This document shows, in pieces, positions 10,283 through 37,035 of a DNA stretch of 64,000 bases; the first letter of the stretch is position 1; every line of letters starts with the position of its first letter. A program made the translations under genes and the position numbers. The stretch spans positions 806,001 through 870,000 of the forward strand of contig NZ_AP027056.1 in assembly GCF_027924965.1 (NCBI RefSeq), in the 5' to 3' direction. This DNA comes from Limnohabitans sp. TEGF004 (GTDB lineage Bacteria; Pseudomonadota; Gammaproteobacteria; Burkholderiales; Burkholderiaceae_C). The notes beneath the pieces are model-generated. The model was given only the letters and a program-made list of their open reading frames with translations. It did no database searches and had not been told where the DNA came from.

Positions 10283-11350
10283 TTACAAACGCTTGGCTGA
10301 TTGGCAAACCGCCAAGGCGAGTTCAAGGCCAGACACAAACGCGTCTTCCACGCGATGGCCCAAGTGCCAGTCGCCACAGGTGCCCAAGCCATTGGCTGGG
10401 TTGTACTGATGCGAGACACCCAGTGGTGTGATGGTTTTGGCATACAGCCAGCGGTGCAACTCGGCGTGTGCTGGTTCGGCGCGGATGCCCGTCAGTTCAG
10501 CAAACGCGCGTAAGAGTTTGGCTTTCACGCGGGCTTCGGTGTCAGTGATGTGTTCGGCAGACCAAGCGGCACTGGCTTGCACGGTCCAACGTTCCACCTT
10601 GCCACGACCAGGCTTGGATGACTCGCGTGCCAACCATGCAATGCGGTGGTGAATGCTGCGTGCGGCGTTCCACTGTGGGCCAATGTGCAGGTTAGGTTGT
10701 GTGGCGTTGGGGAAGGCCACCATCATGGTCCAGCAAGGGGCCACGTCGACGGCGTCCATGGCTTTGAGCCACTGCGCATTCGCGGCCTCTTTGCCGGAGG
10801 CTTTGAGCAAGTTCTCGGCTTGTACCGAAGGAACAGCGAGCAACACATGGTCAAAGCCCGCATGCTTTTGCGCCACTTCTTTGCCTGACGTGCTGTTGAC
10901 GGTATGGAGTGTCCACAAGCCTTTGGCGCCACGCTCAAGGCGGTTGACTTGGGTGTTGTAGGTCACAGCTTTGCCCAAGGGCTCGGCCCAGTGACGCACC
11001 AAGGCGTTCATGCCGGGCTTGGCCACAAAGTGCGCGTCTTTGGTGGCGCGTGCTGCTTCAAACACATGGCCCAGTGGGTCGAGCACGCGCACGGCGTTGG
11101 CGCTCCAAGGGCGGCAAATGTCAGAGGTGCCGGGCACGGTTTGCAAGGCCAGTGAGAAGCGTGGGTCGCGCACGGTGAAGTATTGAGTGCCGTGGTCAAA
11201 AGTGCCGAAGTTGCTCAGGCGGGTGGACATGCGACCACCTGCGCCTCGGCTCTTTTCAAACACGTGCACATGGTGGCCAGCGTTGGCCAAAGTGCGGGCT
11301 GCTGTGATGCCAGCGATGCCGGCTCCGATGATGGCGATGTTTAAGGTCAT
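10283..11350 (-). CDS. FAD-dependent amine oxidoreductase (renalase-like)
   Basis: 355 residues. The N terminus is a Rossmann dinucleotide fold, 'IAIIGAGIAGITAARTLANAG', followed by 'VFEKSRGAGGRMSTR', the GG-R-x-S/T motif of flavin amine oxidases. The protein has the length of bacterial renalase-type or NAD(P)-binding FAD oxidoreductases. C-terminal 'NGLGTCGDWHLGHRVEDAF' is the conserved flavin-contacting end. The substrate is unknown; bacterial renalases oxidise off-isomer dihydro-NAD(P). Its stop abuts the gluQ start, and it lies nine bases after the LysR gene, so the three may be co-transcribed. Confidence 0.82.
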   Translation of the reverse strand: MTLNIAIIGAGIAGITAARTLANAGHHVHVFEKSRGAGGRMSTRLSNFGTFDHGTQYFTVRDPRFSLALQTVPGTSDICRPWSANAVRVLDPLGHVFEAARATKDAHFVAKPGMNALVRHWAEPLGKAVTYNTQVNRLERGAKGLWTLHTVNSTSGKEVAQKHAGFDHVLLAVPSVQAENLLKASGKEAANAQWLKAMDAVDVAPCWTMMVAFPNATQPNLHIGPQWNAARSIHHRIAWLARESSKPGRGKVERWTVQASAAWSAEHITDTEARVKAKLLRAFAELTGIRAEPAHAELHRWLYAKTITPLGVSHQYNPANGLGTCGDWHLGHRVEDAFVSGLELALAVCQSAKRL

Positions 11351-22416: not shown

Positions 22417-24312
22417 ATGTTTGATTTTGTTCGCAAGCACACACGGGTCATGCAATTTTTGCTGTTCCTGTTGATCTTCCCATCTTTCGTTTTGTTTGGC
22501 CTTGAGGGCTACAACCGTTTCAAAGAAGGTGGCTCTACGGTGGCCACGGTGGACGGTCACGACATCACGCAAGCCGAGTGGGATGCGGCACACCGAAGCC
22601 AGGTCGAACGTATGCGCAGCAGCATGCCCAATGTGGATGTGAAGCTGTTTGACACACCTGAAGCTAAATACAGCACCTTAGAGCGCCTGGTGCGTGACCG
22701 CTTGTTGCAAGTGGCAGCCAGCCAATTGCGTTTGGGTGCCAGCGATGCCCGTTTGGCCGCTGAGTTGCAGCAAAACCCCACCATTGCAGCCTTGCGCCGC
22801 GCCGATGGCACTTTGGACATCGAGCGTTATCGCCAATTGTTGGCCACGCAAGGTATGTCGCCCGAATCGTTTGAAGCCCAAGTGCGCGGTGATTTGGCGT
22901 CGCGTCAAGTCATGTCCGGTGTGGGTGTGACCAGCTTTAGTTCTGCGGCTTTGGCGGATGTGACCTTGAATGCTTTTTATGAGCAACGCCAAGTGCAAGT
23001 CGCGCGTTTTGCGCAGTCTGACTATGTGGCGCACATCAATCCGACAGAGGCTGATTTAGAAACTTATTACAAGGCCAATGCCGACAAGTTTCAGTCTGCT
23101 GAGCGTGCCGACATTGAATACGTTGTGCTGAACTTAGCTGCTGTGCAAAAAGACATTGCGGTTCCCGAGGCAGAGCTGAAAACGTACTACGAACAAAATA
23201 CAGCCCGTTTGGCTGGCCTCGAAGAGCGTCGTGCCAGCCACATCTTGATCAATGCTGACAAAGGCGCGTCTGCTGCCGAGCGTGATGCAGCCCGTGCCAA
23301 AGCACAGGCTTTGTTGGCTGAGGTGCAAAAGTCGCCCAACCAATTTGCTGAGTTGGCTCGCAAAAACTCGCAAGACACAGGCTCCGCTGCCAAAGGCGGT
23401 GACCTCGATTTCTTTGGTCGTGGTGCCATGGTCAAGCCGTTTGAAGAGGCCGCATTTGCGCTGAAAAAAGGCGAGACCAGCGGTGTCGTGGAAACAGAGT
23501 TTGGTTTTCACATCATTCGCGTGACCGACATCAAACAGCCTGAGCAAAAAAGCTTTGAATCGCAACGCGCGAAGCTCGAGCAAGAAGTGCGCTCTCAATT
23601 GGCGCAACGCAAATTTGCCGAAGCGGCTGAGCAATTCACCAACATCGTGTACGAGCAATCGGACAGCTTGAAGCCAGCAGCTGAGCGCTTGAAGCTTGAC
23701 GTGCAACAAGCCAGCAACTTGGGCCGTGAGCCTGTGGCGGGCAACACCGCTGCCAATAATCCCAAGCTGTTGGCTGCCGTGTTCTCACAAGATTCGATTG
23801 AGAAAAAGCGCAACACCGAAGCGGTAGAGTTGGCTACCAATGTGTTGGCTGCCGCCCGCATCACCAGCTACAGCCCTGCGCGCACCTTGCCTTTGGATGA
23901 GGTCAAAACGCGTGTGCGCGAGCAAGTGGTGGCACAACTGGCCACTGAGCGTGCACGTGCGGAAGGTGCTGCGAAATTGGCCGAGTGGAAGGCCAGCCCT
24001 GATGCTGCCAAACTACCTGCCGCCATTGTGGTGTCACGTGAATCAAAACAAGCTCAGCCTTCTGCGTTGGTTGAAGCGGCGCTGCGAGCCAGCACACAAA
24101 CCTTGCCTGCATGGGTGGGCGTGGATTTGGGTACCAGTGGCTACGCCGTGGTGAAGGTTGAAAAAGTGCTGCCACGCGATGCCGCCAATGTTTCAGGTCT
24201 GGCTCGTGAGCGCGAGCAATACGCCCAGTGGTGGGCCTCGGCCGAAGGCTTGGCTTACTACAAGCTATTAAAAGAAAAATTCAAGGCAGAAATCAAAATA
24301 GCTAGGTTATAA
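22417..24312 (+). CDS. ppiD: periplasmic peptidyl-prolyl isomerase / chaperone PpiD
   Basis: 631 residues. The N terminus 'MFDFVRKHTRVMQFLLFLLIFPSFVLFGLEGY' is a single uncleaved membrane anchor, so the rest faces the periplasm. A SurA-like N-domain follows, then a parvulin domain at about residues 265-375 with 'RRASHILINAD' and 'VETEFGFHIIRVTDIKQP'. The C-terminal part again resembles SurA/PpiD. PpiD sits at the Sec translocon and helps outer-membrane protein folding. Position between a hup-like gene and tRNA genes matches the hupB-ppiD order of E. coli. Confidence 0.93.
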   Translation: MFDFVRKHTRVMQFLLFLLIFPSFVLFGLEGYNRFKEGGSTVATVDGHDITQAEWDAAHRSQVERMRSSMPNVDVKLFDTPEAKYSTLERLVRDRLLQVAASQLRLGASDARLAAELQQNPTIAALRRADGTLDIERYRQLLATQGMSPESFEAQVRGDLASRQVMSGVGVTSFSSAALADVTLNAFYEQRQVQVARFAQSDYVAHINPTEADLETYYKANADKFQSAERADIEYVVLNLAAVQKDIAVPEAELKTYYEQNTARLAGLEERRASHILINADKGASAAERDAARAKAQALLAEVQKSPNQFAELARKNSQDTGSAAKGGDLDFFGRGAMVKPFEEAAFALKKGETSGVVETEFGFHIIRVTDIKQPEQKSFESQRAKLEQEVRSQLAQRKFAEAAEQFTNIVYEQSDSLKPAAERLKLDVQQASNLGREPVAGNTAANNPKLLAAVFSQDSIEKKRNTEAVELATNVLAAARITSYSPARTLPLDEVKTRVREQVVAQLATERARAEGAAKLAEWKASPDAAKLPAAIVVSRESKQAQPSALVEAALRASTQTLPAWVGVDLGTSGYAVVKVEKVLPRDAANVSGLAREREQYAQWWASAEGLAYYKLLKEKFKAEIKIARL

Positions 24313-24324
24313 TTTTGCCTCTAC

Positions 24325-24401
24325 GGTGGCTGTAGCTCAGTTGGTAGAGTCCAGGATTGTGATTCCTGTTGTCGTGGGTTCGAGCCCCATCAGCCACCCC
24401 A
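24325..24401 (+). tRNA. tRNA-His (anticodon GTG); integration target of the hut island
   Basis: A 77-base gene with the extra 5' G that marks tRNA-His (GGTGGCTG), anticodon loop TTGTGAT, T arm GTGGGTTCGAGCCCCAT and CCA encoded. Its last 48 bases (24354-24401) recur exactly at 36367-36414, about 12 kb away. The complete gene is on the left side, so the insertion kept a functional tRNA. Confidence 0.96.
24354..24401 (+). repeat. left attachment repeat (att), inside tRNA-His
   Basis: These 48 bases, from GGATTGTGATTCC of the anticodon arm to the CCA end, are identical to 36367-36414. Identity stops at the base before (A versus T) and just after the CCA. Confidence 0.85.
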
Positions 24402-24410
24402 GTATTTATG

Positions 24411-24441
24411 CGGGTTCCCAGTTAGGGAGCTCGCATTTTTT
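24411..24441 (+). terminator. terminator-like hairpin directly after tRNA-His
   Basis: An imperfect stem GCGGGTTCCC / GGGAGCTCGC, followed by A and eight T residues. It would end the tRNA-His transcript in the present arrangement, in place of the displaced terminator at 36421. Confidence 0.6.
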
Positions 24442-24599
24442 TTGGGAATATGAATTCCAAAAAGTAGGTTTTTTTGGAATGTGTTGCTCGCAACCCGCTA
24501 TTTGCCTAGATAGACAACAGGAACAGAGGGGCTGTACTGAAGTTTTTCCGACTTACTTGCTTTTTTAAAGTTGGAATAGGTGTCTACAGATATGGGGGA

Positions 24600-24809
24600 A
24601 TGCCAAAGCTCCTTGAGCTAGCAAGCACTGGACAATTCCCAGTTCCAGTTAATTGCGAGATTCACGTTGGGTCTGAGGATTGGCAGAGTTGCGCAAATTC
24701 CAAAGTCTTTGGCGAGATGGTTTGGATCAAAGTTCACTTGGTTCAGGGTGTAGGGCACATATTGCCGCATGCACACGTGAATGAATTGTTGAAGACGTGG
24801 AAAGTGTAG
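24600..24809 (+). pseudogene. possible C-terminal fragment of an alpha/beta hydrolase
   Basis: A 69-codon open stretch whose second half, 'VQGVGHILPHAHVNELLKTW', resembles the catalytic-histidine end of alpha/beta hydrolases (G-x-G-H-x-L-P followed by a final helix); 'IHVGSEDWQSCANS' would correspond to the acid-loop region. The nucleophile part is missing. The frame stays open upstream without a good start. The identification is tentative; it may also be chance coding in a remnant. Confidence 0.3.
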
Positions 24810-24823
24810 ATTCACAGTCGTTT

Positions 24824-24846
24824 CCATCAGCCAGTCCAGTATTTAT
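24824..24846 (+). repeat. degenerate third copy of the tRNA-His end plus flank
   Basis: CCATCAGCCA-GT-CCAGTATTTAT matches 24387-24409 (CCATCAGCCA-CC-CCAGTATTTAT) at 21 of 23 positions. The match includes the bases after the CCA, and it is again followed by a terminator. It brackets a 0.4-kb segment between itself and the tRNA. Confidence 0.6.
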
Positions 24847-24848
24847 AT

Positions 24849-24884
24849 GCCCTAGCAACCTTTTTTGTTTCTAGGGCGTTTTTA
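24849..24884 (+). terminator. terminator-like hairpin after the third repeat
   Basis: GCCCTAG / CTAGGGC stem with a 15-base T-rich loop, followed by GTTTTTATT. It has no T tract on the minus strand, so it does not serve the hut operon. Confidence 0.55.
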
Positions 24885-24930
24885 TTATCCGAGCCATGTA
24901 AGACGGATTTAACCTAAGTAGGGAAGGGCA

Positions 24931-25758
24931 TCAATTCTCGTTTTTCGAACCTTCGACAAATGCTAATACTGCCTCTAGCATGCTTCGCACATGCGGCTGT
25001 ATGCCCGCAGCGACATCTGGCAAATATTCAAAAGGCCAGGTTTCCTGCATGTAACTGCATTGCGTCATTTCTAGCTGCACAGCATGAACACCTTGAGTTG
25101 GATTTCCGTGTTGGCGTGTGATGTGCCCACCCTTAAATCGACCATTGAGCACAGCGCTATAGCCTGATGCTTTTTGACCAATTGCCAGAAGTTGTTCTGC
25201 TAACACAGGACTACAGCTGGCTCCTTCAGCAGTACCTAGATTCAGATCGGGCAAGCGACCTTCAAAAAATCGCGGCAGTACAGAGCGTATGGAATGAGCA
25301 TCCCACAAGGCAGCAACGCCATGCTCGGCTTTCATGCTTGCTAATTCATTTGCTAATTGCGCGTGATAAGGCTTCCAGATGGCTTCACGGCGTGCAGCAA
25401 TCTCTGCTTCATCCGGTTCTTCGGCTGGGTCGCGATAAAGAGACTGATCATCGAACAAATCAACAGGACACAGTCCAGTAACGCTTTGTCCAGGGTACAG
25501 ACTCGCCCCGTCAGGTGGACGGTTCAGATCAATCGCAAAGCGTGAATGTGTAGCCACAAGAACAGAGGCTCCAAGCTCATCTGCAAAGTCGTAAAAACGC
25601 TCGAGATGCCAGTCTGTATCCGGTACGCGTTGTGCTTCGTCGGTTAGACGAGCGGCCAAGGCAGGCGGCACGTAGGTACCCACATGCGGCATGGAGATCA
25701 GTAGTGGGCGTGTTCCCTTACGAAAGCGAAAAGGAGGTTCAGTAGTTTCAAAAGTCAT
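24931..25758 (-). CDS. hutG: N-formylglutamate deformylase
   Basis: 275 residues. It hydrolyses N-formylglutamate to formate and glutamate, the last step of the five-step histidine pathway. The FGase-family pattern is clear: 'PLLISMPHVGTYVPP' with a metal histidine, 'DTDWHLERFYDFADELGASVLVATHSRFAIDLNRP', and later 'WDAHSIRSVLPRFFEG' and 'GRFKGGHITRQHGNP'. The start overlaps the hutF stop by four bases (ATGA). Last gene of the hut transcript. It works on the product of the neighbouring HutF, so the two define the formylglutamate branch rather than HutE/formiminoglutamase. Confidence 0.95.
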   Translation of the reverse strand: MTFETTEPPFRFRKGTRPLLISMPHVGTYVPPALAARLTDEAQRVPDTDWHLERFYDFADELGASVLVATHSRFAIDLNRPPDGASLYPGQSVTGLCPVDLFDDQSLYRDPAEEPDEAEIAARREAIWKPYHAQLANELASMKAEHGVAALWDAHSIRSVLPRFFEGRLPDLNLGTAEGASCSPVLAEQLLAIGQKASGYSAVLNGRFKGGHITRQHGNPTQGVHAVQLEMTQCSYMQETWPFEYLPDVAAGIQPHVRSMLEAVLAFVEGSKNEN

Positions 25759-27149
25759 TGTGTGTTCTCTAGTAATTGTTGACGTGCAGCTATCAGGCCG
25801 TTCGAAGCGTTGTCATGTAAAACATGACGACCCGATTCGACCTGCAATTGGCCAGCTACCCATACCTGAGATAGCGCTGATTGGCGGTGGCTAGCAAACA
25901 CATGGGTTGATAGCATGGCTTCGGGTGAGGGTAGATTCCGCAGCAGTGGGTGTTGGGCATCGAGCACGATCGCATCTGCTTGTTGGCCTACTACTAGACC
26001 TGCGACCTTGCGGCCACATGCTTGTGCGCCACCGTTAACCGCAGCAAGTGTCATGGCTGTAGCAACTGAGGTCTGTTCTTCCGTTACCAGAACATTGCGT
26101 TGGCGCGTGGCTAGACGTTGGCTGTATTCCAGCAGCATCATTTCTTCAGCTGCATTGACGCTGGCGTGACTGTCTGAACCTAACCCCCAATGCCCACCGG
26201 ATTCCAACCAAGTGTGTGCATCGAAAATTCCGTCACCCAAATTAGCTTCGGTGCTAGGGCATAGACCTGCAACAGCACCAGTCTGAGCAGCGCGGGCGCT
26301 TTCCGCAGCACTCATGTGAGTAGCGTGAACTAGGCACCAACGTGCATCAACGTGCGTGTGGTTGAGTAACCACTCCACAGGTCGCTGTCCGCTCCAGGCA
26401 ATGCAAGCGTCGACCTCACCTGTTTGCTCTGCAATATGAATATGAACGGGAGCATCAGCGTCTATTGAATGCAAACCCATTAGAGCTTCGCGCAAACTGT
26501 CGGGCGGCACGGCGCGCAAGGAATGCGGTGCAAGTCCAAGGCGGGCGCCTTGTGCTTCGCACAGTGGCTTTAGCCTTTGCAGTAAGTCCAACATGTTGTC
26601 GGTAGATCGGATAAAGCGCCGCTGACCCTCATTTGGCGGAGTTGCTCCAAAGCCACTGGTTTGGTAGAGCACTGGCAGCAAAGTCATCCCGATACCTGCA
26701 CGAGCTGCAGCACGTAATAGACACATCGAAAGAACGGCGTCATCTGCATAGGGGCGACCATCTCGATCATGATGTACGTAATGAAATTCACATACGCTGG
26801 TGTAACCGGCCTCTAGCATCTCGACATATAGGCCTGTCGCAATGGCTTCAAGTTGCTCTGGTGTGATGGCCGCCGCAAATCGGTACATCAAGCTACGCCA
26901 ACTCCAAAAGCTGTCTTGTGTGGCGCTCCGGTATTCGGTCAGTCCTCCAAACGCTCGCTGAAAAGCGTGCGAGTGCAAATTAGGCATGCCTGGCAACAAG
27001 GGACCCGCGGTGCGAGGGGTACCTGTGGGACAACTTGTCTGGACACTGACATCTGTGAGCAGACCATGATCGTTCCATGACAACAGAACATCACGCGCCC
27101 AGCCCGTGGGCAACAAGGCGTGTTCTGCAAAGAGGCTAAGGTGTTTCAT
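25755..27149 (-). CDS. hutF: formimidoylglutamate deiminase
   Basis: 464 residues, an amidohydrolase-superfamily enzyme that deaminates N-formimidoylglutamate to N-formylglutamate. The metal motif is '[17 protein letters not shown]'. '[10 protein letters not shown]' carries further conserved histidines, and '[13 protein letters not shown]', '[15 protein letters not shown]' and '[15 protein letters not shown]' (final aspartate ligand) are characteristic of HutF. Overlaps hutI upstream and hutG downstream by four bases each. Confidence 0.95.
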
Positions 27150-28420
27150 GTGGTGTTCCGACGCAAGCTCATGCCATCAACAGCTAAATAGCCTTGGCGC
27201 ACTACGCTGCACGCAGGGCGTTGACCCAACCAATAGGCTAGCTCAGAGACATCGCTAAAAGGCCAAAGTACAAAATTAGCGGGAGAGCCGAGAGCGATTT
27301 GCCCATGTGTGGCCTCCAGTCTCAAGGCCTTCGCCGCATGACGGGTCACGCCCGCTAGGGCTTCAGGCACGGTCAATCGGAAGAGTGTGCAAGCCATATT
27401 GATCATCAATAGCAAACTCAGGGATGGTGATGTTCCAGGATTGTGGTCGGTCGACACAGCCATGGAAACGCCAGCCGACCTCAGTGCATCAATCGGTGGT
27501 AAGTGGGTATCGCGAAGGGTGTAATAAGCACCGGGCAACAACACCGCCACGGTTCCTGCCTCCCTCATTGCGGCAATACCTTCGGCACTCAGGTGTTCGA
27601 TATGGTCACACGACAGCGCCCCATAGCGCGCCGCTAGCGCCGAACCGCCCATATCAGTCAGTTGCTCTGCATGCAGTTTGACTGGCAGACCTAATTTTTG
27701 CGCTGTCTGGAATACGCGCTCGGTCTGAGCGAGCGAGAAACCAATGGTTTCGCAAAACACATCCACAGCATCGACCAACCCCTCTGCCGCTAGAGAAGGC
27801 ATCATCTCTTGGCAGACCAGTTGTATGTAATCGTCGGTGCGTCCTGTGTATTCAGGCGGGAGTGCATGCGCTCCCAAAAACGTAGTTCGAACTGTGACAT
27901 GAAACGACTCACCTAAACGCCGCGCAACTCTCAGTTGTTTTCGCTCATGTTCCAAGCTCAAGCCGTAACCTGATTTGATCTCGATTGCACAAACACCTTC
28001 ACTGAGTAAAGCTTTCAGACGAGGCACAGCCGCCTCAAACAAGTCGTCTTCACTGCATTCACGCGTGGCTTTAACACTGGAGACTATTCCGCCTCCAGCG
28101 CGTGCAACTTCTTCGTAGCTGGCACCAGCAAGGCGCATCGCAAACTCATTCGAGCGTTGACCACCGTACACCAGATGCGTGTGGCAATCGATGAGCCCCG
28201 GTGTGACCATTGCACCCAGTCCATCGTGCTTGGACCAAGAGCTATAGCTGCCGGGTAGTGCACTATAAGAACCAGCCCAAACAATTGATCCTTGTTCGAC
28301 CACTATGGCCGCATCACTCAAGGCGGCTGCACCAGCTCCCAGTGCCTCTGGTGCGAAGTGCAGGTGATGCCACACACCATCGGCGCTTGGCAAGGCAGGT
28401 GTAGGAGGCGCAATACTCAT
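27146..28420 (-). CDS. hutI: imidazolonepropionase
   Basis: 424 residues. It opens the imidazolone ring of imidazolonepropionate to give formimidoylglutamate. The amidohydrolase motif '[21 protein letters not shown]' is followed by '[23 protein letters not shown]', '[13 protein letters not shown]' and '[12 protein letters not shown]', all HutI signatures with intact zinc/iron ligands. Four-base overlaps at both ends place it in one translationally coupled run hutD-hutI-hutF-hutG. Confidence 0.96.
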
Positions 28421-29004
28421 AGCTTTTGTACGTGAAGGTTGAGAGCAATTAGCGCTGCATCTGGACTTTTAGGAAGTAGCTGCCAAGCCAAAGACGAATC
28501 GCTCCACCAAAAGCCTTCCTGCGGTGCAAGGTGCTCCTCATGATTACCATTAAGCTGCCAATAACCATGCACTGCCAAAACCAAACCATGCGATGCAGTA
28601 GGCCAATCGCAGCCATGGCGAATGATCTGTAAAGAAACATTGCTGCAAGTTGATCGGCGTGTCATGACGTTGAAATCGTGGCAGTCATCATCTAACAAGC
28701 TGGCATTGATGTCGGTCTCACCCTTAAATGCAAACGGTAACAAGGGCACATTCAGTAAGTGATCTACATCACCATCGCTGCTTTTCAAATGCACACCGCC
28801 TCCGCTGATCAAAGTGATGATTCTGTCCACCCCTGGAAATGCTGAGAATGGTCCGTCGCTGGCAATGTGCGCGATGCTGACTCGCCAGTCAAAATCACCA
28901 ATGCCAGATCCTATGGGTTGACAGACGATTTCACGTGTCACACCACCGCCATTTTTCCAGGGCGTGGCTTGTAAATCATCTACATGAAATCGATGCAGTG
29001 TCAT
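28417..29004 (-). CDS. hutD: HutD-family protein
   Basis: 195 residues, opening '[22 protein letters not shown]', the HutD hallmark, then '[33 protein letters not shown]'. A cupin-like fold without known catalysis. In Pseudomonas HutD has been proposed to set an upper limit on hut expression, possibly by binding a pathway intermediate such as formylglutamate. It is found only with hut genes, which strengthens the pathway assignment. Confidence 0.92.
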
Positions 29005-29055
29005 AGATTTAAAAGAATCAGCGCGTCTATTTTCTTTGATTAAATTTCTATGACA

Positions 29056-30753
29056 TTACTTGACCATAGGGAGATTCAGACCTTGCTTTTTGGCTGTGGC
29101 GATCGCTAGTTCGTAACCGGCGTCGGCGTGACGCATCACGCCAGAGCCACAGTCGTTGACTAGAACACGAGCCAATCGTTCAGCTGCTGCATCGCTGCCA
29201 TCTGCCACGATGACCATGCCTGAATGTTGTGAATATCCCATGCCCACGCCACCACCGTGGTGCAGGCTGACCCAGCTGGCACCGCCTGCCGTATTGAGCA
29301 AGGCATTGAGCAGCGGCCAGTCGCTCACGGCGTCTGTGCCGTCTTTCATAGCTTCTGTCTCGCGGTTGGGGCTTGCCACCGAGCCTGTATCCAGGTGGTC
29401 GCGTCCAATAACGATAGGAGCTTTCAGCTCACCATTACGGACCATCTCATTGAAAGCCAGACCGGCGATGTGACGCTCACCTAGTCCTAACCAGCAAATG
29501 CGTGCAGGCAAGCCTTGGAAGCTGATTCGTTCACGCGCCATGTCAAGCCAGCGGTGCGTGTGCTTGTTGTTCGGAAACAGTTCCTTGATCTTGGCATCGG
29601 TTTTGTAAATGTCTTCAGGGTCTCCCGAGAGGGCCACCCAGCGGAATGGGCCTTTACCTTCGCAGAACATGGGACGAATATAGGCCGGCACAAAGCCAGG
29701 GAAGTCAAAGGCGTTTTTCACGCCATGGTCCAAAGCGACCTGACGGATGTTGTTGCCGTAATCCACTGTTGGAATGCCCATCGCTTGGAAGTCCAGCATC
29801 GCCTGCACCTGAGTTGCACAGCCTTGGGCTGCGTCAGCCGTCAAGCGAGCGTGCTGCGAGGGATCGTGCTGGGCCGCTTTCCATTGTTCTACTGACCAAC
29901 CTGGGGGCAAATAGCCGTTGATTAGATCGTGTGCTGAAGTTTGATCGGTTACCAAATCGGGCCGTAAACCACCAGTTTGGGCTCGACGAACCAGCTCCGG
30001 CAACACCTCAGCAGCGTTACCTAAAAGAGCGATTGAAACGGCTTCTTTAGCTGCCGTGTGGTGCGCGATCATCGCAAAAGCCTCGTCGATATCTTTGGCC
30101 TGCTTGTCCACGTATCGGGTGCGCAAACGAAAGTCGATGCTGCTTTGTTGGCATTCGATATTGAGTGAGCAAGCTCCAGCTAATGTGGCTGCCAATGGCT
30201 GCGCTCCACCCATGCCACCAAGGCCCGCAGTCAAAATCCACCGACCTGTCCAGTCGTTGTTGTAATGCTGACGTCCGGCTTCAACGAAGGTCTCAAAGGT
30301 TCCTTGCACAATGCCTTGGCTACCAATGTAAATCCACGAGCCCGCCGTCATCTGGCCATACATAAACAGGCCTTTGCGATCGAGTTCATTGAAGTGTTCC
30401 CAATTCGCCCACTTCGGAACAAGATTCGAATTGGCGATCAGAACGCGCGGAGCGTTGGCATGCGTTTTAAATACACCCACTGGTTTGCCTGATTGAACCA
30501 GCAAAGTTTCATCTTCGTTCAGGTCTTTAAGCGAAGCCAGAATTTGGTCATAGCAATCCCAGTCTCGAGCAGCGCGGCCAATGCCGCCGTACACCACGAG
30601 GCTTTGGGGGTTCTCAGCAACCTCAGGGTCGAGGTTGTTTTGGATCATTCGGTAAGCAGCTTCAGTGATCCAGTTTTTACAACTCAGAGTGTTACCCCTC
30701 GGTGCGCGAATGACGCGGCTGGAGTCCAAACGGTGATCAGCGTAAGTAGTCAT
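29056..30753 (-). CDS. hutU: urocanate hydratase
   Basis: 565 residues, full length. It converts urocanate to imidazolonepropionate using tightly bound NAD as electrophile. Conserved stretches include '[17 protein letters not shown]', '[23 protein letters not shown]' (NAD-binding glycines), the active-site region '[16 protein letters not shown]' and '[22 protein letters not shown]'. It is the first pathway enzyme present here; the histidine ammonia-lyase that would feed it is not in the cluster. 51 bases separate it from hutD. Confidence 0.97.
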
Positions 30754-30785
30754 GTTGTTTGCCTTAAAAATTGAAAAAGATTGGG

Positions 30786-31490
30786 TCAGTGAATACCGAG
30801 GTAGGCCTCGGTGAGATGTGGATCGTGGCGTGCAGCTTCTGCACTACCTAGCCAGACAGTGCTTCCAGATTCCAAGACGCAGATATCGTCTGCAATCTTC
30901 AGCACACGTTCGGTGTTTTGTTCAACAAGTAAAACGGTCATGCCTTCGCGGCGCAATTGGATGAGGGCTTGGTAGCACAAGTCGATCACCTTCGGCATGA
31001 GTCCGAGTGATAACTCATCAATCATGATGAGACGTGGTCGCGTCATTAAGGCTCGACCAATAGCCAACATCTGCTGCTCGCCACCAGAAAGATTGCCGGC
31101 CAGTGAGTTCAGGCGCTCGCCTAAGCGAGGAAACAAAGCTAGCACTCGGTCACGGTCGTGAGTGAAAACTTGTGCTGATTGCACCATGCCTCCTACACGT
31201 AGGTTGTCTTGCACAGTCAAATCTTTAAACAGGCGGCGACCCTCTGGTGAAATGGCAATGCCCTTACGCACGCGTTCGGTCGGGTCAAGGTTAGAGATGT
31301 CGACCCCGTCTAATTGAATGGCACCACCTTGTTGCTGTACGTGACCTGCAATGCACATCAGGGTCGAAGACTTCCCTGCGCCGTTTGCCCCCAATAGTCC
31401 AGTGATAGTGCCTGGTCGTAGTGAAAGCGATAGGTTGTGAACTGCCTGAAAAGCGCCGTAGCCGCAGGAAACGGATGTGAGCTCAAGCAT
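30786..31490 (-). CDS. branched-chain-amino-acid-type ABC transporter ATP-binding protein (LivF-like)
   Basis: 234 residues from [12 protein letters not shown]. Walker A '[13 protein letters not shown]', signature '[22 protein letters not shown]', Walker B '[11 protein letters not shown]'. The short form without extra domains matches LivF. The start lies inside the end of the upstream LivG-like gene (8-base overlap). Part of a five-gene HAAT importer between hutU and hutC, so the cargo is likely histidine, urocanate or a related imidazole compound rather than leucine. Confidence 0.93.
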
Positions 31491-32301
31491 GTTGCGTCTC
31501 CAATTTGGGTTGTCCTTCTGCGGCAGCTGCACCCAATGCATCTCCGCCTAGGTAAGCAGCCCGCACGACGGGGTCTGCCATGACTGTGCGCGGGTCGCCA
31601 TCGCCAATTTTTTTCCCGTTGTCCAGCACGACTAAGCGTCGGCATATGCGCATGACCTCACCTAAGTTGTGTTCGATCAGCACAATGGTTAGGCCTTGTT
31701 GATTGATCTCGGCGATCGTTGCTGCCAAGGCGTGGGCTTCTTGAGAATTCAAACCCGCCAAAGGCTCGTCGAGCAGCAGCAAGCGTGGCTTGAGTGCTAG
31801 AGCTCGCGCCAGTTCCAAACGTTTGAGCACACCAAGCGGCTGGATGCTTGGACTTTGCGATGCCATGCTCGCAATGCCTACTCGCTGCAATTCATGCTGA
31901 GCCACAGCCAGTTCTTGCTCGTTAGATACGTTAAGCAAAGCACGTAACGGGCTGACAGTCTTTGCACTGGCCGCAGCCAGAGCGACGTTATCGCCCATGC
32001 TTATGTCGTGTAACGGTTTGACTAACTGCTGAGACAAAGACATGCCACGTTGGATGCGTTTGTGTATGGGAAGTCCGTTGAGCGATTCGCCTCCTAGTGA
32101 GACGCTTCCCTCTGTGGGTTGGACTACTCCGATGATGGAGCGCATCAGGGTCGTTTTACCTGCACCATTGGGGCCAATTAGGCCGAGCAGATCGCCTTCG
32201 TGGACTTCAAAGGTCACATCGTCCACAGCAGTTAATCCGCCAAAACGTACAGTCACATGATCTACTTTCAACAGCGGCTCATCGGATGACTGTTTATTCA
32301 T
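31483..32301 (-). CDS. branched-chain-amino-acid-type ABC transporter ATP-binding protein (LivG-like)
   Basis: 272 residues. Walker A 'GLIGPNGAGKTTLMRSI'; the LivG-type region continues with 'KRLELARALALKPRLLLLDEPLAGLNSQEA'. 'VLIEHNLGEVMRICRRLVVLDNG' is the switch histidine segment. The canonical LSGGQ-like signature is altered to 'IQPLGVLKRLELARAL', where most LivG proteins have L-S-Y-G-x-Q-R-R-L-E; the substitution is worth noting but lies in an otherwise intact domain. Overlaps the LivM-like gene by four bases. Confidence 0.9.
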   Translation of the reverse strand: MNKQSSDEPLLKVDHVTVRFGGLTAVDDVTFEVHEGDLLGLIGPNGAGKTTLMRSIIGVVQPTEGSVSLGGESLNGLPIHKRIQRGMSLSQQLVKPLHDISMGDNVALAAASAKTVSPLRALLNVSNEQELAVAQHELQRVGIASMASQSPSIQPLGVLKRLELARALALKPRLLLLDEPLAGLNSQEAHALAATIAEINQQGLTIVLIEHNLGEVMRICRRLVVLDNGKKIGDGDPRTVMADPVVRAAYLGGDALGAAAAEGQPKLETQHA

Positions 32302-33158
32302 GATTTGCCTCCTGTCGTGAACAGCTTCATATGAGTGAAGCGCTTAGATAATCCAGCCATGCCATCTGGCGAAAAACGCATCATCAAGAACAGCAAGCCC
32401 CCATAGACCAATAATTTGTAGTCGCCGATGACCTGGAACCAAGCGGGCAGCACAGAGAGTAGGGCGGCAGCGATGATCACTCCAGGTACGGAGCCAATGC
32501 CACCAAACACAACCATTGACAAAACTGTGATGGACTCTACAAAACCAAAACTCTCCGCACCGATGAAGTTCAGGTGATAGGTGTAGAAAGCACCCGACAT
32601 ACCCGCCAGTGCGGTACCCATGGCGAAGGCTGCTAATTTGTAGCGTGGCACATCGATACCCAGAACCCTCATGGTGTCTTCGTCTTCAGCGATACCGTTA
32701 AACACACGACCCATCCAGCTGCGCTTGATGTAAATGCTCAAAGCGGCAACGCCGATGCACATCAACAGCGCAAGGGCCATGAAGCCCACGCGGCCTAATC
32801 CATGGTCTGGAATTGAAGATATCCCCAGCTCACCACCTAGAAACTCTTGTTGACGAACGATGCCGACAAAGAGGAAACCTACGCCCATGGTGGTGATTGC
32901 CAGGAAGTCTGCTCGCACTCGTAGTGAAGCCAATCCGACAATCACACCTAACAGGCCGGCGAGGACCATTGCAACGGGAATGGTTGCGAGAAACGGTAAA
33001 CCTGCTTTACCTAACATCGCAGCTGTATAGGCTCCAATGCCTTGAAAGGTGGCATGCCCTAAGCTGATCTGGCCGCAAAAGCCAGTGATCAAATTGAGAG
33101 AGAGCGCAAACATCACGGCAATTGCCATGGTAGTTAGCAATGAAATTTCGTAATTCAT
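32298..33158 (-). CDS. branched-chain-amino-acid-type ABC transporter permease (LivM-like)
   Basis: 286 residues from ATG (MNYEISLL). About eight to ten hydrophobic spans. 'LSLNLITGFCGQISLGHATFQGIGAYTAAML' is the LivM signature. The cytoplasmic 'EDEDTMRVLGIDVPRYKLAAFAMGTALAGMSGAFY' loop contacts the ATPase. An in-frame TTG ten codons upstream would overlap the LivH-like gene. Forms the inner-membrane channel with the LivH-like partner. Confidence 0.92.
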   Translation of the reverse strand: MNYEISLLTTMAIAVMFALSLNLITGFCGQISLGHATFQGIGAYTAAMLGKAGLPFLATIPVAMVLAGLLGVIVGLASLRVRADFLAITTMGVGFLFVGIVRQQEFLGGELGISSIPDHGLGRVGFMALALLMCIGVAALSIYIKRSWMGRVFNGIAEDEDTMRVLGIDVPRYKLAAFAMGTALAGMSGAFYTYHLNFIGAESFGFVESITVLSMVVFGGIGSVPGVIIAAALLSVLPAWFQVIGDYKLLVYGGLLFLMMRFSPDGMAGLSKRFTHMKLFTTGGKS

Positions 33159-33174
33159 GATCTGTGCTTCTAGG

Positions 33175-34038
33175 TCAGCTGCGGGCAAACAGGCCCTGAG
33201 GGCGCACCATCAGCACCGCAATCAAGAAAGCGAATGCGATTGCATTGCGGTCTAGGATGTCGCCAAGATAAATCGTGCCAAAGGCCTCAATCACACCAAG
33301 TAGCAGTGCTGCGGCCAGAGTGCCTGGGACCGAGCCCAGTCCACCAAGCACGATGATCGCTAGTGCTTTGTAGGAGGGCACGCTGCCCATGGTGGGCTCG
33401 ACCAGGTTATTCAATAAAGCCACCCAGACGCCTGCAAACCCAGCTAAAGCCGAGCCCACGAAGAAGTTGATATCGCGGACTTTGCGAAGAGAAATGCCAA
33501 AGGACTGAGCCATTTGCGGATCTGAAACCGTGGCTTGACAGGCAATGCCCACTCGTGTTCTCGACTGCAGCCAAGCAAGAACGCCGATGATGGTCGCAGT
33601 GCTGAGCATTACCAACAGTTCAGCCAGCTTAAATTGGAGTCCACCACCTAGAACAAATTGTTGTTGCAGCACCGGGTTGTTAAACGACATTCCTTGTGCA
33701 CCAAAGATGATGCGAAACGCTTCTTCGGAGGCAATGAACAGTCCGATGGATGCGATCAGCGCTACGTATGGCGGCTGGCTCAGTAACGGCTGATATGCGA
33801 GCCGGAACATAACCACGCCGCCGAAGCCTGAAATTAATGCTGCACATAGAAAGCCCAGCGCTAAGTTGCCACTGGCGTTGCACACCATGACGCCGACGTA
33901 TCCACCTAAGGTGAAAAGTGCTGCGTGCGCCACATGAAGGATGCGCAACAGACCGTAGACCAGGGTCAGCCCCAACGCCACAAGAGCGTAGATGCTGCCC
34001 TGGATCAGGCCCTGCGCGATAAGTTCAATCGCGAGCAT
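33175..34038 (-). CDS. branched-chain-amino-acid-type ABC transporter permease (LivH-like)
   Basis: 287 residues, eight or so hydrophobic segments. 'IAQGLIQGSIYALVALGLTLVYGLLRILHVAHAALFTLGGY' is the conserved LivH opening, and 'SVPSYKALAIIVLGGLGSVPGTLAAALLLG' is the permease coupling loop. Sits between the binding-protein gene (15 bases upstream) and the LivM-like gene. Confidence 0.93.
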   Translation of the reverse strand: MLAIELIAQGLIQGSIYALVALGLTLVYGLLRILHVAHAALFTLGGYVGVMVCNASGNLALGFLCAALISGFGGVVMFRLAYQPLLSQPPYVALIASIGLFIASEEAFRIIFGAQGMSFNNPVLQQQFVLGGGLQFKLAELLVMLSTATIIGVLAWLQSRTRVGIACQATVSDPQMAQSFGISLRKVRDINFFVGSALAGFAGVWVALLNNLVEPTMGSVPSYKALAIIVLGGLGSVPGTLAAALLLGVIEAFGTIYLGDILDRNAIAFAFLIAVLMVRPQGLFARS

Positions 34039-34053
34039 TGTTTAATTCCAGAC

Positions 34054-35211
34054 TTACTTAGCTTTAGTTGGTGGAGCCAAGAGGACCGGGTCAGAAATGA
34101 CTGAATGGCGACGGAAGGCCTTGTCTTTCACGATCTGTACTTGAATGTCTTTTCTCACTTCGTGTAGATCATTGAACTCAAGCTTGCCGATAGGCATGTT
34201 GTAGCTGCCTGCTGCAATCGCATCGCGCAGTGCTGCTCCACCTTTACCTCCGCTTTTTCTCAGGCCCTCAATCGCTACAGCCGTAGCAGTAAAGGATGCT
34301 GCAGCCACCATGTCGGCACCAGAGTTTGTCGCCTTGCGATAGTCGGCTAGAAAGGCCTTGGTTGCAGGTGCATCAGAGTCTCGGTCAAGTGATGTTGTTA
34401 CATACGTTCCCTCAGATGCAGGGCCGGCAATTTCGATGAACTTGTCTGAGTCGTAACCTTCCTGGCCGATGATGGGAGCAGTAACACCAGCTGCACGAAG
34501 TTGACTCACGAGTGGTCCAGCTGTAAAGAAGTAGCCAGAGGCGTAGATCACGTCTGGGTTGTCGGATTTAATCTTGCTCACGAGTGGACCGAATTGACGG
34601 TCCGGCATGCCATATTCGTACTCGTTGATGATGTTGATGCCTAGCTTGGGAGCGGCTTCTTTAAAACCAGCAGCTAAAGCTTGACCAAAGTCGTTCTTGA
34701 GGGTTACGAGGACAACATTCTTTTTGCCCAGGTTTTGCACTAGCTTGGCACCCCCACGTCCTTGGACTTCGCCCATTGCTGAGACGCGGAACATGTAGTC
34801 CCCAGCGAGTGTGATTTCGGGGTGGATGGCATAGGCCACGACGTACGGAATTTGAGCGCGCTGGAATATCACTGCAGCAGCGCGGGTAGATCCTGAATAT
34901 GAACCAGAGACAGCTGCAATTACCTGATCTTTTTCAACCATCTTTGTAGCTGAAGGGACAGCTTCTTTGGGTGTGGCTTGGTCGTCATAGACCACCAGCT
35001 CAATTTTTTGCCCAGCTACTCCACCTTTCGCGTTAGCTTGTTCAACAGCTAGCTTTGCACCCTCTAGAGATGACTTGCCATCAGCAGCGGCAAAGCCTGT
35101 TAACGGAACGTTAAAGCCCAACTTAAGCTGCGCCCAAGCAGGGGAAGCAGAAAAAGCCACAGCCGCAGCAGCGACTGTTAGTAATGAAAAATGGGGAGTG
35201 CTGGATTTCAT
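34054..35211 (-). CDS. periplasmic amino-acid-type solute-binding protein of the hut importer
   Basis: 385 residues with a cleavable signal peptide (MKSSTPHF..., hydrophobic core, cleavage after S-P-A-W-A). The mature protein is a type I periplasmic binding fold of the LivJ family: 'LKLGFNVPLTGFAAADGKSSLEGAKLAVEQANAKGG', 'VVYDDQATPKEAVPSATKMVEKDQV', and 'AAVSGSYSGSTRAAAVIFQRAQIP'. First gene of the minus-strand transcript, directly downstream of the HutC-type operators, so it should be induced with the hut enzymes. Ligand inferred from context: histidine or urocanate. Confidence 0.92.
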   Translation of the reverse strand: MKSSTPHFSLLTVAAAAVAFSASPAWAQLKLGFNVPLTGFAAADGKSSLEGAKLAVEQANAKGGVAGQKIELVVYDDQATPKEAVPSATKMVEKDQVIAAVSGSYSGSTRAAAVIFQRAQIPYVVAYAIHPEITLAGDYMFRVSAMGEVQGRGGAKLVQNLGKKNVVLVTLKNDFGQALAAGFKEAAPKLGINIINEYEYGMPDRQFGPLVSKIKSDNPDVIYASGYFFTAGPLVSQLRAAGVTAPIIGQEGYDSDKFIEIAGPASEGTYVTTSLDRDSDAPATKAFLADYRKATNSGADMVAAASFTATAVAIEGLRKSGGKGGAALRDAIAAGSYNMPIGKLEFNDLHEVRKDIQVQIVKDKAFRRHSVISDPVLLAPPTKAK

Positions 35212-35278
35212 GAGTTGTTCCTTTCGGTGGCTGTCGTTGAATCAGAGTTAACTGGAGGTCACAGATTTACGAGCGAAA

Positions 35279-35290
35279 ATTGTATATACA
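35279..35290. promoter_or_regulatory. HutC-type operator 1, over the hut promoter
   Basis: TGTATATACA (35281-35290) is a perfect palindrome with the GTATATAC core that fits the GntR/HutC-subfamily pattern GT-N-TA-N-AC. On the minus strand it overlaps TACAAT (35279-35284), a -10 candidate for the importer/hut transcript, so bound repressor would block initiation. Confidence 0.6.
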
Positions 35291-35311
35291 TATATTTGTA
35301 AAACAACTATA

Positions 35312-35323
35312 TTGTCTATACAA
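35312..35323. promoter_or_regulatory. HutC-type operator 2
   Basis: TTGTCTATACAA carries the core GTCTATAC, again of the GT-N-TA-N-AC form, 22 bases from operator 1. It lies between the divergent hut and hutC starts, nearer the hutC side, and may mediate autoregulation of hutC. Confidence 0.55.
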
Positions 35324-35400
35324 CTTCGTAAAGCAAAATGTAATCACAGCTAAGATCGCTGTCAATGATGTTTCTAGCAACCGCGGGAAAACACCTAAAA

Positions 35401-36120
35401 ATGCCAAAAACTACTTCAATAAAAAAGCGCCAGCCGGCCTTTCAGGCTATCAAGGCCCATATCCTTGCCAAGATCCATGACGGCGAATGGACGGATGGCG
35501 AGTTGATTCCAAGTGAAGAGAACTTAGCTCGTGAGTTTGGTGTGTCACGTATGACAGTCAATCGGGCTGTTCGTGAACTTTCAGATGAGCAGATCGTTAA
35601 GAGGATTCAGGGCTCTGGCACTTATGTCGCTCAGCAAAAATATCAATCCACCCTGGTTGAGATTCGAAATATTGCTGATGAAATTGCTGGCCGAGGTCAC
35701 AAGCACCGCAGTGAACTTCATTGTTTAGAACGTGTCAAAGCGGGGGAGGTGCTGGGGCCTCAGCTTGGCTTGAAGCCAGATCAGGTGGTTTTTCATTCTG
35801 TAGTCGTGCACTTTGAGAACGATCAGCCTATTCAGGTTGAAGACCGGTACGTTAACCCGATGGTCGCTCCGGACTATATTTCGCAAGATTTCAATAGCTT
35901 GACTCCAAACGCGTACTTGATGCGTATGGCGCCATTACAGGGAGTGCATTTTGAAATTGAGGCCTGCTTACCGCCATCTCATATCAGAGAGATGTTGAAT
36001 ATTCCTACAACTGAACCTTGTTTGGTATTGCACAGACAAACCCAATCCATGGGGCAGGTGGCATCAGTCGCGGTGATGTGGCACCCAGCCTCGCGTCATC
36101 GATTCACAGGATTTTTTTGA
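35401..36120 (+). CDS. hutC: GntR-family histidine utilisation repressor
   Basis: 239 residues. The N-terminal GntR winged HTH reads 'QAIKAHILAKIHDGEWTDGELIPSEENLAREFGVSRMTVNRAVREL' and 'GSGTYVAQ'. The C-terminal UTRA domain contains the HutC-typical 'RVKAGEVLGPQLGLKPDQVVFHS' and ends 'VAVMWHPASRHRFTGFF', close to the R-F-x-G-x-F end of HutC proteins. HutC is released from DNA by urocanate. It is divergent from the importer and hut genes. The ATG at 35401 is preferred over one 12 codons upstream, as it matches the usual N terminus. Confidence 0.92.
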   Translation: MPKTTSIKKRQPAFQAIKAHILAKIHDGEWTDGELIPSEENLAREFGVSRMTVNRAVRELSDEQIVKRIQGSGTYVAQQKYQSTLVEIRNIADEIAGRGHKHRSELHCLERVKAGEVLGPQLGLKPDQVVFHSVVVHFENDQPIQVEDRYVNPMVAPDYISQDFNSLTPNAYLMRMAPLQGVHFEIEACLPPSHIREMLNIPTTEPCLVLHRQTQSMGQVASVAVMWHPASRHRFTGFF

Positions 36121-36366
36121 GCGGCTTGCTAAACACGAACGGCGACTTAAGATCAACTTCAGGCTATGGAGCGTGTCTTAGATTTTGTGTGAAAACAATC
36201 AATACAAATCAAATTAATGCAGCAAATTTGTTGAGTAATTTTTCTCTATCTTTTAAGTTAATTTATTTGGAATACTCATAGCTAAATGGCGCCAAATGGT
36301 GCTTTCTAAAGCACTGTATATTACAAAAAATTCCACGCTAACCCCATGGATCCTATGTTCTGAAAT
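36121..36366. other. A+T-rich stretch at the right end of the island, no gene seen
   Basis: About 245 bases between hutC and the distal tRNA-His repeat. No reading frame with a start and a recognisable protein is present on either strand, and no integrase fragment is visible. The composition is markedly A+T rich. Confidence 0.6.
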
Positions 36367-36414
36367 GGATTGTGATTCCTGTTGTCGTGGGTTCGAGCCC
36401 CATCAGCCACCCCA
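36367..36414 (+). repeat. right attachment repeat: 3' half of tRNA-His
   Basis: 48 bases identical to 24354-24401. The 5' half of the tRNA is absent (preceded by unrelated A+T-rich sequence), so this is not a functional tRNA gene. Confidence 0.85.
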
Positions 36415-36420
36415 AAATTG

Positions 36421-36451
36421 AAAAGGGTTCCCAAAATGGGAACCCTTTTTT
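36421..36451. terminator. strong bidirectional terminator
   Basis: AAAAGGGTTCCC / GGGAACCCTTTT with loop AAAAT and T tracts on both sides. It ends the nitroreductase end of the nitrate operon on the minus strand. On the plus strand it has the position of a tRNA-His terminator, six bases after the repeated tRNA end. Confidence 0.88.
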
Positions 36452-37035
36452 CATGTAAGCACCGTGACAAAGTTCAATATTTCGGGTCTTTGTCTTCTGG
36501 CTTTGTGTGCGCTTGCATGGCCAAACGCCACATAGCAAATGCCTTCTTCGTGCTCTTGTAGTTTGAACAACTCGCGAATGCTGGGCGCATTCATCGCTTG
36601 CCCGCTGGTGATGCCACTGCCCATCGACAAGGCTTGTGCCATCAACAGCATGTTTTGAATCGCGCATCCCAAAGAGATCAAACGTTCATGCACAGGCACA
36701 TGCAGTTCATAAGGTGTGTGGCTGACCACGGCTAGCATCAAGCACGGTGCACGAAATGCTTTGTTGTAGGCCGTCTCTAATTCGGCTGAGCTGGCATTGG
36801 CGTCGCGCGCTTGCAGCGCCTGCACAAACGCATGGCCTAAGGCTTCGCGTTGATCGTTTGGCACCACGATGAAGCGCCAAGGCCGGATGCGTCCGTGGTC
36901 TGGTGCTTGGGCCGCGGCCCTGAAGATAAGTGCCAACTCATCCGCACTGGGGCCGGGTGCCTCTAAGCGTTTGGGGGCGACATGGCTTCTGGCACACATC
37001 TGCGCCAACAACACCTCTGCCGCCGCTGCGCCCAT
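36451..37035 (-). CDS. YdjA-like nitroreductase-family protein
   Basis: 194 residues. 'DELALIFRAAAQAPDHGRIRPWRFIVV' is the FMN-binding N-terminal helix region of the small YdjA-type nitroreductases (A-P-D-H-G-x-x-x-P-W-R-F), and 'SLGCAIQNMLLMAQALSMGSGITSG' and 'EEGICYVAFGHA' complete the fold. Reduces nitro compounds or other electron acceptors with NAD(P)H; the physiological substrate is unknown. It starts two bases after the cynS stop, so it is the last gene of the nitrate/cyanate operon. Confidence 0.85.
   Translation of the reverse strand: MGAAAAEVLLAQMCARSHVAPKRLEAPGPSADELALIFRAAAQAPDHGRIRPWRFIVVPNDQREALGHAFVQALQARDANASSAELETAYNKAFRAPCLMLAVVSHTPYELHVPVHERLISLGCAIQNMLLMAQALSMGSGITSGQAMNAPSIRELFKLQEHEEGICYVAFGHASAHKARRQRPEILNFVTVLT

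Follow-up and report, generated by a model that had tools for sequence, protein, structure and literature searches.

How does a block of histidine utilization (hut) genes come to lie between a tRNA-His gene and a second copy of that gene's 3′ half? The question is raised by a stretch of 64,000 nucleotides from Limnohabitans sp. TEGF004 (contig NZ_AP027056.1, positions 806,001 to 870,000 of the forward strand; henceforth the window), whose genome of 2.77 Mb on two contigs is 100% complete. From the letters alone, the original prediction had placed here, at 24354–36414, a hut catabolic island inserted into tRNA-His, with attachment (att) repeats but without an integrase. Taken as one whole, the following reading is likely to be correct: a genomic island has inserted at the 3′ half of tRNA-His, its cargo is a module for urocanate, and it sits there as a fossil or as something like a cis-mobilizable element (CIME).

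Results

A perfect att repeat encloses compositionally foreign DNA

The tRNA-His gene (GTG; 24326–24401, plus strand), recognized by ARAGORN and by the tRNA family of Rfam, is intact, and its 3′ part is taken as the left attachment site (attL). The proximal att core of 48 bp, corresponding to tRNA positions 29–76 (24354–24401, plus strand), is repeated exactly by the distal core (the right site, attR; 36367–36414, plus strand). The window contains exactly two copies of this 48-base 3′ part with zero mismatches, which bears out the repeat as it had been described. Genome-wide, the distal copy was the sole other strong match to this part of tRNA-His (E = 7.8e-19), the next four being the genes for tRNA-Lys, -Arg, -Phe, and -Asn; an Rfam scan of the distal repeat gave nothing above the gathering score. 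The block thus has what a tRNA-targeted island should have, an intact tRNA gene at the near boundary and, at the far one, its 3′ end as a direct repeat.

The DNA in between is compositionally foreign, with strong differences in base composition and codon usage, and the claim that it is richer in A+T was confirmed. Its GC content is 51.5%, compared with 56.4% in the left and 57.4% in the right flank, and that of all 113 sliding 12-kb windows outside the block ranges between 55.6 and 58.1%. GC content at third codon positions (GC3) is 0.516 inside versus 0.692 outside, and the codon-usage distance of the block (6.73) compares with a maximum of 2.77 among 29 contiguous outside gene sets.

Relatives without the hut genes

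The genus was sampled with 84 genomes, many of them incomplete (40 reach a completeness of 90% or more with contamination of 5% or less), and HutU is present in only nine of the 84. The left neighbor of tRNA-His, ppiD (22417–24312, plus strand), has a match in 61 of 61 genomes, some of these matches reaching paralogue level only, and lies directly 5′ of tRNA-His in 15 congeners that were mapped as well as in Limnohabitans sp. Rim8 and Limnohabitans sp. INBF002, with whose PpiD that of the window shares 93% identity. The latter two keep both flanks without hut, in the order ppiD, tRNA-His, other DNA, nitroreductase, CynS, CobA, NasA, NirD, and NirB; the DNA between tRNA-His and the nitrate operon amounts to 3.7 kb in Rim8 and 11.1 kb in INBF002 and carries other genes. 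This variable DNA (L104, 14778–18466, in Rim8; L103, 2662–13803, in INBF002) has only its distal part in common, and the extra genes near tRNA-His in INBF002 include one like the cho-type nuclease gene of the congener G033 and a umuC fragment. In the 15 further congeners, no hut genes were found 3′ of tRNA-His over the 1.3–17.8 kb mapped.

Directly after the distal core, the window has a terminator (36415–36450, plus strand). In two congeners, G033 and G074, this same GGGTTCCC terminator directly follows tRNA-His itself, with 93% identity over 84–85 bp including the core. The next gene in the window, nitroreductase-like and named by eye (36451–37035, minus strand), starts the nitrate/nitrite block; Rim8 and INBF002 likewise have it on the right-hand side of tRNA-His, and it was not found in G033 or G074. 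Of the ancestral order that had been proposed (ppiD, tRNA-His, terminator, nitrate operon), the junction of tRNA and terminator is therefore recovered in relatives. Together, the repeat, the foreign composition, the hut-less relatives, and the terminator match support the proposal of tRNA-targeted integration.

tRNA-His as a target of phages and probably of more than one insertion

In the congener G017, two genes of the integrase family PF00589 lie in tandem behind tRNA-His, with tRNA ends of 28 and 17 bp downstream; the two integrase genes (L076, 2014–13240) are nearly identical. An empty and an occupied site are observed elsewhere in the genus: in G035, 2.0 kb of DNA run on from inside tRNA-His (position 28), and the same 2.0 kb, 89% identical, are found in G020 behind a 49-bp tRNA-His half, the intact tRNA-His of G020 being on a different contig from this half and followed by other DNA. 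Halves of tRNA-His starting at position 28–30 recur in G024, G065, G097, G104, and G107. An apparent copy at a contig end in G006, where the bases that come next match those behind its intact tRNA-His, was dropped as a contig overlap. In G097 (L388, ∼118–221), G107 (L390, ∼9832–9936), and G104 (L391, ∼10328–10431), the tRNA-His 3′ half is preceded by a common end, CCCCCACTTTTTCATTTGGGTCCCCC ... TTACATACYAATCTGC, whereas the neighboring genes differ among the three (by eye, tctC-like, lysC, and hemW); this looks like the end of a second family of tRNA-His elements.

Viral genomes use the same site. A probe of 23 bases from tRNA-His matched at least 120 stretches in IMG/VR, 120 of which were examined and contained 123 tRNA-His copies. 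Among the matches listed, 44 of the 123 copies cover the whole gene, whereas 64 begin at position 26–32, 27 of the latter at position 29, as in the window. Near these 64 copies lie 43 open reading frames (ORFs), and of the 30 tested, 20 match PF00589, that is, integrases. By these matches, the tRNA-His 3′ half is a phage attachment core. A control with tRNA-Val from the same window gave 12 IMG/VR stretches, seven of them with partial copies starting at position 31–32; a boundary near position 30 is therefore not special to tRNA-His.

The proximal end of the block holds a feature that the original prediction had missed, a degenerate third att remnant, CATCAGCCAGTCCA (24825–24838, plus strand; 12 of 14 bases identical to the tRNA-His 3′ end), with a second terminator, GCCCTAG...CTAGGGC. 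The two together (24824–24890, plus strand) are 85–86% identical over 63–68 bp to the congeners G005 and G009, and the region as far as 24912 is 82% identical over 89 bp to G011 C12; directly 3′ of tRNA-His, the GCCCTAG...CTAGGGC terminator is found in G009, G031, G003, and G005. Between attL and this remnant are a terminator-like sequence (24404–24445, plus strand; 90% identical over 42 bp to G077, where the homologue is directly 3′ of tRNA-His) and a small open stretch of 99 codons (24510–24806, plus strand) without a Pfam match and with nine homologues of 61–162 amino acids (E ≤ 0.01), which would belong to an earlier or separate insertion. Because the degenerate third att comes with another terminator at 24825–24890, more than one insertion is probable: a small element (24402 to about 24838) would lie in front of the hut element, and two or more inserts have probably entered the tRNA-His hot spot in this genome. 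In G065 (L385, 319–533; a tandem pair) and G107 (L389, 6090–6356), tRNA-His 3′ halves are also each followed by a GCCCTAG terminator, and the two species have the same aminotransferase and dehydrogenase genes 5′ of these halves.

Mobility genes and the right end of the island

That the block lacks an integrase was borne out. Neither an integrase gene nor a convincing remnant was found in the window when all six frames were searched; tblastn of 30 phage ORFs against the window gave three weak matches (E between 0.011 and 0.096), all outside the block, and a profile of phage ORFs gave one match, again outside the block (E = 0.36). Relaxase or conjugation genes are absent from the 11 block genes, all of which are hut or transport genes by Pfam and curated models. 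With no integrase of its own, the block is set apart from integrative and conjugative elements (ICEs) and integrative and mobilizable elements (IMEs); att sites on both sides and no integration or transfer genes are what is expected of a CIME. An ICE or IME parent of the block was not found, and what was seen alongside are the third degenerate att and the integrase tandem of G017.

The right terminal segment of the island (36189–36366, plus strand) has a homologue in G104 (72% identity over 178–180 bp, E = 8.3e-20), and both are flush with the tRNA-His core. No comparable match was obtained in the other members of the 84-genome sample (next E = 0.005); when the segment was compared with 11 other congener copies and with the third att of the window, G104 alone matched clearly. 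The G104-type end has no exact match in IMG/VR, and against the flanks of the viral loci examined the right end scored at most 23, versus 104 for G104. The gene adjoining this end in G104 encodes an acyl-CoA dehydrogenase and is followed by genes for a thiolase, an enoyl-CoA hydratase, a TetR regulator, an AMP-binding ligase, and five ATP-binding cassette (ABC) transporter components of the Liv type, all with 45–53% GC. For G104, genome completeness is 76% and the contig in question measures 15 kb; an intact tRNA-His of G104 was not found among the matches listed. With two examples at hand, this suggests that one end segment accompanies two different cassettes, each combining import with enzymes.

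The cargo lacks HutH

With shorter antisense ORFs set aside, the block has 11 non-overlapping genes, which encode HutG, HutF, HutI, HutD, HutU, five Liv-type ABC components, and HutC. On the minus strand lie hutG for N-formylglutamate deformylase (24931–25758; TIGR02017 over cut-off), hutF for formimidoylglutamate deiminase (25755–27149; NF006684 and TIGR02022 over cut-off), hutI for imidazolonepropionase (27146–28420; TIGR01224 over cut-off), hutD (28417–29004; PF05962), and hutU for urocanate hydratase (29056–30753; TIGR01228 with 947 bits, cut-off 375), the product of which scores under the cut-off of the thiourocanate hydratase model. They are followed on the same strand by the importer genes: a LivF-like ABC ATPase (30786–31541; PF00005, LivF being the best model, below its cut-off), a LivG-like ABC ATPase (31483–32301; PF00005 and PF12399), LivM-like (32298–33188) and LivH-like (33175–34038) permeases (both PF02653), and a periplasmic substrate-binding protein (34054–35211; PF13458), kin of the Leu/Ile/Val-binding proteins. 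Divergent from them, on the plus strand, is hutC for a GntR-family repressor (35365–36120; TIGR02018 over cut-off). Operator-like sites for HutC are located between hutC and the importer operon (35280–35323): the canonical TGTA-TA-TACA at 35281–35290, which is the only copy in the window, and a second operator-like site, TTGTCTATACAA, at 35312–35323. The consensus TGTA-N2-TACA and the response of HutC to urocanate are described in excerpts of PMC12977541.

HutU, HutI, HutF, HutG, and HutC, as expected of a hut operon, are thus present, and the genes that the block does carry have full-length open frames. The claim that the block carries only histidine utilization genes, their importer, and their repressor accordingly holds for the 11 genes; the label is misleading, as HutH (histidine ammonia-lyase, PF00221) was found neither in the block nor in the whole genome. 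HutH was likewise found in none of 37 genus genomes of a first sample and in none of the nine HutU-bearing genus genomes (this one and eight others); outside the genus, six of six HutU-bearing genomes in the first sample had it. A search of public genomes by HutU similarity retrieved at least 596 hut loci; of the best 80, 71 carry HutH on the locus and nine do not, and four of those nine genomes, namely Eoetvoesiella caeni, Neopusillimonas maritima, and two metagenome-assembled genomes (MAGs), are without HutH altogether. The importer is present in 11 of 399 genomes of the family, this one included (E < 1e-100). One genome, G371, has a gene order identical to that of the window's cluster with HutH not inside it, and in G267 the order is kept with HutH outside. 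G371 and G472 each have a second HutU that is paired with HutH, the other HutU being in the cluster with the Liv-type importer, which suggests that histidine and urocanate are handled separately.

As there is no HutH in the cargo, a module of the urocanate type rather than of the histidine type is indicated. The cassette probably imports and degrades urocanate, the putative ligand of the importer; the pocket residues of the binding protein are ambiguous in this respect. Instead of a complete histidine pathway, we infer a portable unit for urocanate that is taken up from outside. Among the open-licence papers listed, no account of HutH-less urocanate cassettes or of Limnohabitans tRNA-His islands was found; in excerpts of PMC12772324, “lacking HutH” refers to deletion mutants of Pseudomonas aeruginosa, and excerpts of PMC12381374 mention no Limnohabitans tRNA island.

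Origin of the cassette

The HutU tree (49 rows) and the HutI tree (43 rows) both group the window with Limnohabitans WS1, Limnohabitans 2KL-17, and two MAGs at 100/99, apart from the other genus genomes (eight rows of six genomes for HutU and four rows for HutI). A HutU like that of WS1 and 2KL-17, which have their genus name from NCBI, was not found in the 84 genus genomes. The importer and HutC have their nearest kin in other clusters, those of G472 and Hydrogenophaga, so the cassette may be a mosaic.

Discussion

The locus would have arisen as follows. Insertion at the tRNA-His 3′ half was most likely catalyzed by a phage-type tyrosine recombinase, whose identity here has to be deduced, since neither an integrase nor a convincing remnant was found. 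The incoming element would have rebuilt the tRNA gene and left the displaced 48-bp 3′ half, together with the host terminator, at the far end. As it carries neither an integrase nor any transfer gene, the island would now sit at the hot spot as a CIME-like or fossil island. HutC is predicted to repress the divergent operon, the Liv-type ABC importer to take in the substrate (putatively urocanate), and HutU, HutI, HutF, and HutG to convert urocanate to glutamate, ammonia, and formate.

Several observations weigh against this reading or call for caution. The order ppiD, tRNA-His, terminator, and nitroreductase gene without an insert is seen in no single genome. That the remote tRNA-His halves of congeners lie beside integrases was considered and not borne out: in G024, G065, G097, G104, and G107, no integrase is evident in the neighborhood (ORFs judged by eye), which calls for caution about the hot spot. 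Of the nine HutU-bearing genus genomes, three reach only 57–64% completeness, and their lack of HutH weighs little for that reason. In other genomes, the same importer sits beside HutH, and Limnohabitans WS1 and 2KL-17 carry hut with HutH. A glutamate of the binding protein is kept in 13 of 13 relatives in which that stretch was seen; it aligns with the residue contacting the amino group in the LIV-binding protein, and would suit an amino acid, for instance histidine, at least as well as it suits urocanate. The nearest known hut relatives, finally, have a GC3 of 0.73–0.96, above that of the host (0.69), whereas the block is below it; as the block is AT-richer than the host and the relatives are GC-richer, the immediate donor is unsampled.

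It is quite possible, if somewhat short of probable, that the block is what recent decay has left of an ICE, IME, or prophage at tRNA-His with hut among its genes; once fixed, this element would have lost the genes for its integrase and for transfer, and it could no longer move. The lack of any mobility gene agrees with this, as do the degenerate third att and the orphan open stretch at 24402–24890, which look like debris, and the integrase-bearing elements at the same gene in G017. However, decay left no convincing integrase remnant in six frames and a distal core that is still perfect, and the right end shared with the different, apparently intact cargo of G104 suggests a compact form that recurs rather than one decay.

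Alternatively, the cargo could be a broken histidine pathway on its way out, from which hutH was lost by chance. HutH on 71 of the best 80 hut loci and a binding protein that resembles an amino-acid binder would speak for it, but we regard it as unlikely: the other genes keep full-length open frames; HutH was found in none of the nine HutU-bearing genus genomes (some of them incomplete), nor in E. caeni, N. maritima, and two MAGs; and it stands outside the same gene order in G371 and G267, with a second HutU beside HutH in G371 and G472. Very improbable, in our estimate, is that the distal 48-bp copy and its terminator are just one of several tRNA-His 3′ halves dispersed in the genus and mark no insertion. 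Congeners do hold such halves by ordinary genes (by eye, for example, lysC and hemW) with no integrase evident; the copy in the window, however, is exact, is followed by the terminator that follows tRNA-His itself in G033 and G074, is preceded by the end shared with G104, and bounds foreign DNA.

If a urocanate island at tRNA-His is the correct reading, phage attachment sites in freshwater bacteria would serve as landing places for entire metabolic capacities, with the cargo spared the cost of its own mobility genes. The HutH-less cassette would predict a cross-feeding niche, with growth on urocanate but not on histidine, and the common 180-bp end would be a handle for finding further cargo. 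More doubtful, and offered tentatively, is a whole family of Limnohabitans cassettes, each composed of a regulator, a Liv-type importer, and enzymes for one substrate, with a common end of ∼180 bp and the 48-bp core but no recombinase, and moved by whichever tRNA-His phage integrases are available; one of these would be the urocanate-only module, by which cells could live on urocanate that others release.

Comparison with known systems

The closest known kind of element appears to be the CIME, the definition of which, according to excerpts of PMC5704250 (loss of integration and transfer genes, retention of att sites, and accretion), fits the anatomy seen here. Like the ICESt1-related elements of Streptococcus thermophilus, the block keeps attL and attR, has no integration or transfer genes, and probably shows tandem accretion at one target gene. 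It differs in that no ICE or IME parent was found and in its tRNA-His target, its catabolic cargo, and an end common to different cargoes; its mobilization is putative. Among the literature seen, the nearest worked example with metabolic cargo is the ssrA islands of Dehalococcoides, including vcr-GI, 15 of which are without an integration module (excerpts of PMC3146451). They resemble the block in their metabolic operons, tandem arrangement behind an RNA gene, direct repeats of its 3′ end, lack of an integrase in some, and a short kept motif by the repeat, but have a tmRNA target, a serine-family recombinase, and a 20-bp repeat, compared with 48 bp here and PF00589 in the phage neighbors.

The temperate phages of IMG/VR with a tRNA-His att have the same core boundaries as the island; many have an integrase beside the core, whereas the island has none and its right end has no strong match among the phage flanks examined. 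With hut operons that contain hutH, such as those of Pseudomonas with hutTu, hutTh, and hutXWV (excerpts of PMC8871633), the island shares HutC control and the HutU-I-F-G route, but it lacks HutH and has a Liv-type ABC importer in place of HutT or HutXWV. Clusters of hutC, Liv-type importer, and hutU in G371, G267, G472, E. caeni, Herbaspirillum ST 5-3, and a Comamonas MAG have the same importer family in the same or a similar order, with binding proteins 73–83% identical to that of the island; unlike in the island, HutH is inside or beside several of them. The type of island is thus already known; this one departs from it in its HutH-less cargo and in an end segment common to different cargoes.

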